From Portibacter marinus (GTDB lineage: Bacteria > Bacteroidota > Bacteroidia > Chitinophagales > Saprospiraceae), in the NCBI RefSeq assembly GCF_021533195.1, contig NZ_JAJNKB010000003.1, positions 397,001-461,000 on the forward strand: 64,000 nucleotides of DNA. Reading direction: 5' to 3'. Positions 17,721 through 43,795 of the stretch are shown piece by piece. The notes beneath the pieces were generated by a model. That model was not told where the DNA came from and did no database searches. It worked only from the letters and a program-made list of their open reading frames with translations. Each line of letters begins with the position of its first letter. Positions within the stretch are counted from its first letter, which is position 1. The translations under genes were made by a program, and so were the position numbers.

Positions 17721-18016
17721 GTTCATCCACTCATCCCTTTAAGAGCAGCTTGCGCTTCGAAGCCTGGCTCAAGCTGAAAGGGAAATGCTCACTGTGAACT
17801 CTAACACTGACTACTGAATATTGACTACTGAATACTGACTACTGACTACTGAATACAGCACCTCATCCACTCATCCCTTTAAGAGCATCCTGCGCTGCAT
17901 TGCTCAGCTGAAGCTCTGAAAGGGAAATGCTGAAAACTGAATACTGAATCTCATCTCCTCATCCCTTGAAGAGCAGCCTACGCTATAAAAGCCTGACTCA
18001 AGCTCTGAAAGGGAAA
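17721..18016. repeat. Three hairpin-forming intergenic repeats, 65-71 bp each
   Basis: Copies lie at 17721-17789, 17861-17931 and 17950-18016. Each starts with a CATCCCTTTAAGAGC-like arm and ends with AGCTCTGAAAGGGAAA or a close variant. The arms are near-complementary (TCCCTTT...AAAGGGA), and inside copy A a second inverted pair AGCTTG/CAAGCT extends the stem. Together they fill most of the 603-bp gene-free stretch between hppA and the DtxR-type gene. No open reading frame of note occurs here. They look like REP/MITE-type palindromic elements; no transposase is nearby. Confidence 0.75.
17806..17856. repeat. Short direct repeats of ACTGACTACTGAATA type
   Basis: Between hairpin copies A and B the sequence repeats TGACTACTGAATA and TGACTACTGAC units about four times with slight slippage; CTGAATACTGAAT recurs at 17937-17949 before copy C. 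The short repeats border the hairpin elements, suggesting they belong to the same repeat family. Confidence 0.65.
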
Positions 18017-41491: not shown

Positions 41492-41984
41492 TGCTATTTT
41501 TTTTACTGATAATCCTTTCCAGGATATCTATTTTCGTTTTGTAATTATTGATCATCAGATTGATTAATATTTCTTTGTTCTCATATTCACTGGTCAACAT
41601 TTCTTCTTTCAATTCTTCATAGACTTCATCTAGCTGTTTTAAGTCATTTGCAACATCTTCATCGATTCCCAACTGTTGGACTTGATCCATCTTATGATCA
41701 ATGGTCGTCATGTAATAGTCACTGGCCTCCTGAAATTCTTTAAACTCAGTTTCCGATGCGAACATATCTTGACTGATGGTTTGTTGTCCCTTAGATATGC
41801 CCAGGAAATAGGCTGCGACGATAAGGACTAAAACAGATGCGGCTACACTCAACCCACTCCACAGCATTCGTCTTTTAGAACTTGGAATATGACCTTCTAT
41901 TTCGTTCCAAACGTTGACAGAAGGCTCATCGATGTCCAATTCTGATCTGTGATTTCTTATGAAATCTTCAAGTCGATCGCTCAT
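41451..41984 (-). CDS. Membrane protein in anti-sigma position of an ECF operon
   Basis: 177 residues. A cytoplasmic N-terminal part (about 1-38, MSDRLEDFIRNHRSELDIDEPSVNVWNEIE), one membrane helix (about 41-62) and a helical, coiled-coil-like extracytoplasmic part (EFKEFQEASDYYMTTIDHKMDQVQQLGIDEDVANDLKQLDEVYEELKEEM in sense). The DEPSVNVWNEIEGHI segment is typical of anti-sigma-like proteins in Bacteroidota. It lies directly behind the sigma gene with a 4-bp ATGA overlap, which supports the anti-sigma role; direct sequence evidence for it is limited. Confidence 0.8.
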   Translation of the reverse strand: MSDRLEDFIRNHRSELDIDEPSVNVWNEIEGHIPSSKRRMLWSGLSVAASVLVLIVAAYFLGISKGQQTISQDMFASETEFKEFQEASDYYMTTIDHKMDQVQQLGIDEDVANDLKQLDEVYEELKEEMLTSEYENKEILINLMINNYKTKIDILERIISKKNSNESKITIDETISI

Positions 41985-42532
41985 AATTCCATTTTTAAAT
42001 GATCACGTGATTTAATTAATTCCCGCAGTTTAGCCTTTGCCCGGCTAAACTGAGATTTCGAAGTGGAAGTACTGATATCTAGTATTTCACTTATTTCATC
42101 GTGGCTGTATCCTTCTAACAGATATAGGTTTAAGATCGTCCTATATCCATCAGGCAATTGCTGGATAGCCTTGTGTACAGCTGCAATATCATATTGCACC
42201 TTTTCATCGTTTTCCACTGTGATTTCGGAAGCACTGTCAGGAATATCTTCGAATATGATCTTGTTCTTTCTGATTTGATTCAAACAATTGTTGATCACTA
42301 TTCGCTTTATCCAGGATCCTACACTTGCTTCACCTCGATATTTCTTAAGATTCTTAAAAATGTCGATGAATGAAACTTGCAGGACATCTTCAGCATCCAT
42401 CCTATTACCCATCATTCTAAGGCAGATATTAAACATCGCCTTGGAGTAAAGCTGGTAAAGTTGTTGCTGCGACCGTCTGTCTCCTCTTATACACAGCCTG
42501 ACTAAGTCAGTTTGTACAGAAGTATTCTTCAC
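41981..42532 (-). CDS. ECF-family RNA polymerase sigma factor
   Basis: 183 residues. Region 2 (about 25-90, YSKAMFNICLRMMGNRMDAEDVLQVSFIDIFKNLKKYRGEASVGSWIKRI) and region 4 (about 120-175, LPDGYRTILNLYLLEGYSHDEISEILDISTSTSKSQFSRAKAKL) are intact. Extracytoplasmic-function type. First gene of a three-gene operon with an anti-sigma-like protein and a beta-solenoid protein. An ECF-like promoter (42585-42612) lies 53 bp upstream, so autoregulation is likely. Confidence 0.95.
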   Translation of the reverse strand: MKNTSVQTDLVRLCIRGDRRSQQQLYQLYSKAMFNICLRMMGNRMDAEDVLQVSFIDIFKNLKKYRGEASVGSWIKRIVINNCLNQIRKNKIIFEDIPDSASEITVENDEKVQYDIAAVHKAIQQLPDGYRTILNLYLLEGYSHDEISEILDISTSTSKSQFSRAKAKLRELIKSRDHLKMEL

Positions 42533-42584
42533 TAAAGTTTGGGTTTTCTATGTCAATGTCATACTAAGATAACCGAGACACTTT

Positions 42585-42612
42585 AAAGACAACATGTTTT
42601 TGTTAGGGTTGC
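42585..42612 (-). promoter_or_regulatory. ECF-type promoter (GCAACC - 16 bp - GTCTTT) of the sigma operon
   Basis: On the minus strand GCAACC (42612-42607) is followed after exactly 16 bp by GTCTTT (42590-42585). ECF promoters commonly have a -35 with a conserved AAC core and a -10 starting GTC at this spacing (known for the class); the match is read directly. Initiation would fall about 45 bp before the sigma ATG. Confidence 0.65.
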
Positions 42613-42660
42613 ATGGGAGGATAGTTTTTTATTATAATTGACCCAACAGTGAGCCCTAGC

Positions 42661-42876
42661 GAGCGACCCAACAGGGAACGAATTGACCACCCCAACAAGG
42701 AACAACGCGACCGCCCTAAAAGGGAACGCAGTGACCGACCCAATAGGGAACGCAGTGACCGACCCAATAGGGAACGCAGTGACCGTCCCAACAGGGAGCA
42801 ACGCGACCGCCCTAAAAGGGAACGCAGTGACCGTCCCAACAGGGAACGCAGTGACCGCCCCAACAGCGAGCCTAAG
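42661..42876. repeat. Nine-copy 24-bp tandem repeat array
   Basis: Nine units of exactly 24 bp start at 42661, 42685, 42709, 42733, 42757, 42781, 42805, 42829 and 42853. Each has the core GACCGnCCC...AGGGAACGCAGT; units 2 and 6 (from unit 0) are identical, as are units 3 and 4, which suggests a 96-bp higher-order duplication. Each unit holds a CCC/GGG inverted pair. The array is GC-rich against an AT-rich surround. Because 24 is a multiple of 3 it is open in several frames on both strands (plus strand 42649-42900 would give an 8-residue repeat, RSDRPNRE). It starts directly behind the PorP/SprF stop and ends before the ECF sigma promoter. I do not call it a gene. Confidence 0.9.
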
Positions 42877-42883
42877 CGAGCCC

Positions 42884-43795
42884 CTAATAATCCCTCCTGA
42901 AAGCATAGCTCAAAAATACCTCAAAACTACCTGGAGAGACCTGATTAATTGGACTCAAAGGAACACCATAAGACAGCCCCAAAGAAAAATCCCTGTGAAT
43001 AGCAAGGGCAATTAAAAAATCTATGGATTGCAAACCAAATCCATTGGTAATCTGAGAATTCAACTGAACACCAGCATCCATCTGGCCACGATAATTATAA
43101 GCGATATAATACTGTAATAGTGAATATTGGTCGCTATCAAACTGCAGATGCAAACGGTTTTTTAACGTCGACCCCCTACCAATTGGAGCATTAACAGTCA
43201 CATTGGCAAACAAAGGGGTATTATTACTTACCTTGTCACTTCCAAACAAACCAATCCGATTGGCCAGTAATCTTGGCAAACTGATACCAAAACCAAATAT
43301 GCCATTCCTGTAGTGCATGCCTATCCCTGTATTAAAACTGGTAAAAGAATATATGCCTTCTTCAATGACAGGATCAGATTCGAGCGGATCTATAAGCAAT
43401 ACATTTTGCTTGGTAAAGTCTTTTTTTCCTTGCTGGAAAGAGGCCACAAGACCAAACCTCAACCGCGCTTCATTGACTCTCAATAGATAACTATAATTCA
43501 TGTCCAATGTAAATCTACTTTGAACTCCCGAAGCATTTCGAAAGATATTGGCGCCTAATTTACTGTTTTCATCTAAAGGGAACAGTGCGCCTAATACCTG
43601 CGAGCTTGGTGTGCCGACAGCACCATTCCACTGCTCTCTGTTTAGAAAAGTAAAGTGAATAACACTGTCCCGATCTACGTGCGCCGGATTGATATAATTT
43701 CCATGTAAGATAGATGAAGCATATGGAAGCTCGAGTTGCCCATTCAAACCTTGACATAGAAAGATAAAACTCAGAATCTTTATTATATTTTTCAT
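42884..43795 (-). CDS. PorP/SprF-family type IX secretion system membrane protein
   Basis: 303 residues. Signal peptide ending near LNGQ, followed by the PorP/SprF pattern: YASSILHGNYINPAHVDRDSVIHFTFLNREQWNGAVGTPSSQVLGALFPL and amphipathic strands to the final SFEVFLSYAFRRDY. Proteins of this family sit in the outer membrane and are paired with T9SS cargo with type-B C-terminal domains; SprF is needed for surface delivery of SprB in Flavobacterium (family knowledge). Here it lies 1 bp after such a cargo gene. It is followed immediately by the 24-bp array. Confidence 0.92.
   Translation of the reverse strand: MKNIIKILSFIFLCQGLNGQLELPYASSILHGNYINPAHVDRDSVIHFTFLNREQWNGAVGTPSSQVLGALFPLDENSKLGANIFRNASGVQSRFTLDMNYSYLLRVNEARLRFGLVASFQQGKKDFTKQNVLLIDPLESDPVIEEGIYSFTSFNTGIGMHYRNGIFGFGISLPRLLANRIGLFGSDKVSNNTPLFANVTVNAPIGRGSTLKNRLHLQFDSDQYSLLQYYIAYNYRGQMDAGVQLNSQITNGFGLQSIDFLIALAIHRDFSLGLSYGVPLSPINQVSPGSFEVFLSYAFRRDY

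Follow-up and report, generated by a model that had tools for sequence, protein, structure and literature searches.

REP elements are divided into a GTAG and a CGTC superfamily, and two of them in inverted orientation make up what is called a REPIN or BIME (PMC3733652). They are short palindromes behind genes, occur with several forms of stem, are commonly paired in inverted orientation and in some cases lie in clusters. According to PMC6006769, atypical and weaker structures that lack GT[AG]G lie beside two groups of TnpA-Y1 genes, those of class 3 and, in Bacteroidetes, those of subclass 2.6. GNA loops are reported to make DNA mini-hairpins very stable (Yoshizawa et al., 1997, as cited in PMC6479982).

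We have analysed a stretch of 64,000 nucleotides of the Portibacter marinus genome (the window) that carries a tandem array between porP/sprF and an ECF sigma factor gene. In what follows G000 is the genome of the window, G001 and G002 are congeners, and G232 and the others are relatives from the same family. We consider the array to be probably a lineage-specific and locally amplified REP-like repeat of mini-hairpins, which would form in single-stranded DNA and may be mobile, and we attribute to it no specific part in the working of porP or the sigma operon.

The family of hairpins described here shares with REP elements, as they are portrayed in PMC3733652, the size, the short palindromes behind genes, the stem variants, the clusters and, in G232, the inverted pairs. 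It differs from them in having no GTAG or CGTC tag, in the tandem G-A centre of the stem, in the GNA triloop, in head-to-tail arrays whose spacers vary from genome to genome and in there being only two arrays in G000. Since neither a GTAG-like nor a CGTC-like unpaired tag is present at the foot of the palindrome in the G000 arrays or the G232 flanks, we do not claim REP membership. By description, the structures of subclass 2.6 and class 3 in PMC6006769 are also similar, being weaker hairpins of Bacteroidetes that lack GT[AG]G and recur at other places in the genome, but G000 has no Y1 gene. With the GNA mini-hairpins cited in PMC6479982 the array has the C-GNA-G closure in common, although that work is oligonucleotide biophysics and ours concerns a genomic repeat. 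Among open-licence PubMed Central full texts we recognised no description of a G-A/GNA repeat in Saprospiraceae.

The arrays and their surroundings

The array (Table 1) is real. Tandem Repeats Finder assigns a period of 24 bp to 42667-42866 with a score of 239, and the self-identity of the 240 bp array at a shift of 24 is 0.71, compared with a best value of 0.38 for other 240 bp stretches within the window. A period of 96 bp scores higher (340; self-identity 0.76 at a shift of 96), which supports the suggestion in the first-pass annotation that a block of four units has been duplicated. That annotation is also borne out in describing a GC-rich array in AT-rich surroundings (59.8% GC over 42640-42890, against 39.5% for the window), situated directly behind the PorP/SprF stop codon and consisting of potential hairpins unaccounted for by any annotated gene. 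Two of the core units, those at 42666 and 42690, are imperfect, with one or two outer stem pairs broken. Elsewhere in the window Tandem Repeats Finder reports a 7 bp tandem repeat, ACTGACT, in 7.3 copies (17806-17856).

Table 1. Coordinates of the array, its units and the flanking features in the window.
Feature	Position	Strand	Basis
Tandem array, period 24 bp	42642..42881	+	
Left edge unit, diverged, GTGAGC-CCTA-GCGAGC, 4-nt loop	42642..42665	+	Pairing by eye
Eight core 24 bp units, each an 8-nt A-rich spacer, a 15-nt hairpin and 1 nt	42666..42857	+	Tandem Repeats Finder, ungapped alignment, covariation
Core hairpin starts	42674, 42698, 42722, 42746, 42770, 42794, 42818, 42842	+	
Right edge unit, diverged, GCGAGC-CTAA-GCGAGC, 4-nt loop; abuts porP stop codon	42858..42881	+	
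porP/sprF (PF11751); flanking gene, outside the element	42884..43795	-	Pfam scan
ECF sigma factor gene; flanking, outside the element	41981..42532	-	ORF list, Pfam scan
Promoter-like motif TGCAACC...GTCTTT upstream of the ECF sigma gene; outside the element	42585..42613	-	By eye

One further array match was found in G000, between leuB and ilvD (G000:C6:14305-14490). Units at this site alternate among stems, for example GGGAAC-GAA-GTGACC, GCAATC-GAA-GATTGC and GTGAGC-GCA-GCGAGC, in a block structure of 48 bp, the corresponding block in the window being 96 bp. Both arrays are placed behind a stop codon and both have a CCYAAMA-like 5' flank to the hairpin. Within each array all hairpins lie on one strand and inverted pairs were not seen; the structured strand is antisense to both window genes and sense to both genes at leuB-ilvD. 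The first-pass annotation had proposed that a unit present at random intergenic sites across the genome, with no neighbour preference and no transcription, would be ordinary satellite-like DNA. In partial agreement with this, the unit recurs in G000 at one unrelated intergenic site, leuB-ilvD. With two arrays only, mobility within G000 would rest on two sites.

The hairpin and its covariation

Sixteen units from the two arrays, 14 of them distinct, align without gaps. The conserved unit is a hairpin of 15 nt with a spacer of 9 nt, the stem having six positions, usually with two G-A mismatches at the centre, and the loop usually being a GNA triloop. Covariation over the 16 units is 0.363 for this hairpin and 0.084 for shuffled units; none of 500 shuffles was as high and slid partners reached at most 0.062. 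The number of cells changed on both sides of the hairpin is 11, against 3.2 in shuffles. This covarying hairpin is a short palindrome able to form a stem-loop. Its two central stem positions are G-A or A-G in 11 of the 14 distinct units and Watson-Crick in three. Tandem G-A pairs are favourable. The loops are mostly GNA (GCA, GAA and GTA), with AAC and AAA also present. All of these G-A and GNA features belong to the + strand, the complement carrying T-C mismatches and TNC loops.

A different fold, with CCC...GGG arms, had been put forward in the first-pass annotation. Such arms are indeed present in most units, but they do not covary (0.055, compared with 0.089 in shuffles) and show no double change, and they were rejected as a conserved fold in favour of the 15-nt hairpin. 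With standard parameters the DNA folding energy is zero for most of the G-A units; these parameters may not credit GNA loops, and the zero values therefore neither support nor refute folding. What occupies the intergenic space is a covarying mini-hairpin that keeps a non-Watson-Crick centre, and a palindrome of this sort is passed over when only perfect inverted repeats are sought.

Congeners and the wider family

Both congeners keep the order of porP and the sigma gene without the array. In G002 the PorP and sigma proteins are 74.5 and 83.6% identical to those of the window, in G001 60.7 and 66.8%, and by eye the TGCAACC...GTCTTT motif is retained, somewhat varied, in both. At the second site leuB and ilvD abut in G002 and are about 100 bp apart in G001, the hairpin motif being absent, compared with 277 bp and an array in G000. 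A probe of the array DNA against 100 genomes gave, outside G000, short weak matches alone, the best with an E value of 0.0027 (G028). The adjacency of the genes without arrays at both sites indicates that the array is lineage-specific and is not a conserved control element of the T9SS or sigma genes. The idea that the array binds a protein and so controls the sigma operon draws on its position, ending some 50 bp upstream of the promoter-like motif, and on the regular 24 bp spacing. Since two congeners retain the genes and the motif without it, and the unit recurs at leuB-ilvD, we regard this as very unlikely.

We counted the motif GNGARCGNAGYGANC in 199 genomes of the family against a reversed-motif control. 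It matched at least once in 103 of the 199, with most counts close to the control. Clear excesses were found in G232 (89+83 against 6+4, giving 172 copies), G160 (11+20 against 0), G103 (14+17 against 2+2), G171 (70+56 against 29+28), G156 (7+7 against 0+1) and G000 itself (9+2 against 0, the two on C11 being single matches in apparent coding regions). There was no excess in G059 (22+16 against 30+25) or G192 (21+17 against 19+32).

For G232 a pairing test was made on 62 entries collapsed from 100 of the 172 matches, the search pattern having demanded no complementarity. Among the matches listed, pair 2-14 is Watson-Crick in 51 of the 62 (shuffled 21.0, s.d. 3.5) and pair 5-11 in 61 (shuffled 48.8, s.d. 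1.7). When the 24 distinct sequences are considered, the values are 14 (6.9, s.d. 2.2) and 23 (16.7, s.d. 1.5), respectively. The signal is weaker across the family: among the matches listed, after manual merging of repeated entries from G028 and from G171, 54 of 129 entries have pair 2-14 (34.3, s.d. 5.0) and 86 have pair 5-11 (69.5, s.d. 5.3), and for the 79 distinct sequences among them neither pair is significant (23 against 20.2 and 45 against 40.3). Copies repeat by descent, so these pairing counts are not independent events.

The spacings between neighbouring hairpins in G232 are 22, 23, 24, 25, 31, 32, 45, 49 bp and more, and the 5' flank is mostly CCTGCAAC. By eye the spacer contains GCAG/CTGC-like letters, though not as the published REP tag. 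Over 51 loci of this one genome, all 15 cases of opposite-strand neighbours no more than 600 bp apart show the order -,+ (binomial p 6e-5), and this is a REPIN-like arrangement. The spacings also bear on a coding function. Reading frames stay open through the array on both strands, giving four ORFs of 83-110 aa, in agreement with the first-pass annotation, which had accordingly offered a translated repeat of eight residues. Such a repeat would read, for example, RERSDRPN on the + strand or GRSLRSLL on the - strand. Two of the four ORFs were scanned and had no Pfam match, the array is absent in congeners, and spacings such as 22, 23, 25 and 31 bp are not multiples of three and would break the frame. 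The 24 bp length is therefore not a codon effect, and we find a translated repeat extremely improbable.

The motif has 172 matches dispersed in G232, against two arrays only in G000. The G232 matches form 59 clusters at 45 loci. Of these clusters 29 avoid ORFs of 100 aa or longer and 30 fall within such ORFs, many of which are short and perhaps spurious, so that the split is a blurred measure of any intergenic preference. The 28 intergenic clusters for which both neighbours are known comprise ten in tandem sense, nine in tandem antisense, seven convergent and two divergent orientations. This distribution speaks against an RNA element, in which hairpins at the 3' end of a transcript would stabilize or terminate the mRNA. 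The location of both arrays behind a stop codon and the sense orientation of the structured strand at leuB-ilvD are consistent with such a role, which the first-pass annotation had suggested for the T9SS transcript. In the window, however, the G-A/GNA strand is antisense to porP as well as to the sigma gene. Folding of the whole array as RNA, which we discarded as evidence, is no better than that of shuffles (z 0.36 for the sense strand and -0.95 for the other), the array has no terminator-like site, and Rfam gives no match over 42400-43000 with E values up to 1. An RNA element is in our view quite unlikely.

A simpler proposal is a plain minisatellite, that is, a GC-rich 24-mer multiplied by slippage with neither hairpin constraint nor mobility. 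Its higher-order blocks of 96 and 48 bp show local duplication, the array unit occurs at two sites only in G000, and that genome has no Y1 transposase. Against this are the covariation between units, between both arrays and in G232, the hairpin and spacer common to two unrelated sites, and the inverted pairs in G232. We consider it unlikely that slippage of an unconstrained repeat is the whole explanation.

In the REP-like reading that we prefer, each core unit is a short imperfect palindrome able to fold, in single-stranded DNA, into a mini-hairpin, and it may act in that form, for example on the lagging strand. The stem has six positions, the two at its centre being G-A mismatches or, in some units, Watson-Crick pairs; a triloop, in most cases C-GNA-G, closes it, and a short A-rich spacer lies on the 5' side. 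Individual hairpins may first have become established behind stop codons, possibly through a HuH (Y1) transposase that G000 no longer has. Slippage or unequal recombination would then have increased their number locally, one, two or four units at a time. This account assigns the array no special function at porP or the sigma operon.

A pattern scan of genome contigs returned 68 stretches, many in Candidatus Poribacteria; rough arithmetic puts about 30 of the 68 down to chance, and single matches are accordingly not used as evidence. A scan of viral contigs gave 44 matching stretches. In one Candidatus Poribacteria locus (L090) two G-A hairpins are 31 bp apart. In an Acidobacteria contig (L091:6600-6720, MELE01000019.1) differing hairpins with GAA loops follow one another at intervals of about 26 bp, and one of them has a tandem G-A centre; the design is similar to that of the array, though in another phylum.

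Y1 transposase neighbourhoods

A Y1 (HuH) transposase is a plausible, if unproven, mobilizer of the array. A profile search found no PF01797 (Y1 transposase) gene in G000. The domain is present in 21 of 25 family genomes, namely all 11 of those chosen because they had several motif copies and 10 of the 14 chosen because they had none, such that its presence hardly discriminates. The G-A hairpin comes as close as 1 kb to the Y1 gene in just two of 52 Y1 regions of relatives, which speaks against these genes as its direct cognates, and as such they were set aside. One region (L183) has a single hairpin and the other (L309) has six, all in one amplified 146 bp unit.

The Y1 regions are a subset of the PF01797 matches in the family genomes. 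Of 32 strong-scoring regions, 31 were used (L205 was left out for an in-frame stop, and one of the two Y1 genes of L180 was counted), and of 20 weaker regions 18 were used (L314 and L315, which are fragments, were left out). L244 and L245 do not enter the counts. Within 1 kb of the 31 strong-scoring genes, perfectly paired 5 bp C-GNA-G hairpins reach eight times the density found farther out, with 44 in 69.0 kb compared with nine in 119.5 kb (p 2.8e-7 when set against other triloops), in an unplanned comparison computed on the same regions that suggested it. These hairpins are found near 14 of the 31 genes, with a stem type particular to each locus (L174-L204). For the 18 weaker, RAYT-like genes the enrichment is not significant (13 in 39.5 kb against eight in 64.6 kb; p 0.82).

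The sequence Y[IV]xxQxxHH is carried by 27 of the 31 strong Y1 proteins, as in subclass 1.2 (DH[IV]H, WQ, YIKNQKEHH) of PMC6006769, where that subclass is listed without such terminal structures. These observations allow a broader and more tentative proposal, which we regard as possible but doubtful: that mobile single-stranded mini-hairpins exist across Saprospiraceae, and perhaps in other phyla, with a C-GNA-G loop, a G-A or Watson-Crick stem centre and a lineage-specific spacer, and that they owe their movement or amplification to orphan IS200-like Y1 transposases bearing Y[IV]xxQxxHH. If the link to GNA hairpins is true, these orphan enzymes would gain candidate substrates that can be tested directly.

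Two tandem repeats adjoin Y1 genes. In G156 (L309:1852-2869) seven copies of the 146 bp unit, which holds the G-A hairpin GGGAGCGCAGCGACT, lie beside a RAYT-like Y1 gene. In G232 (L174, on G232:C10) the 5' flank of a Y1 gene is occupied by a tandem array of another type, with units of about 26 bp (GACTACGCTTGTTGCTG...).
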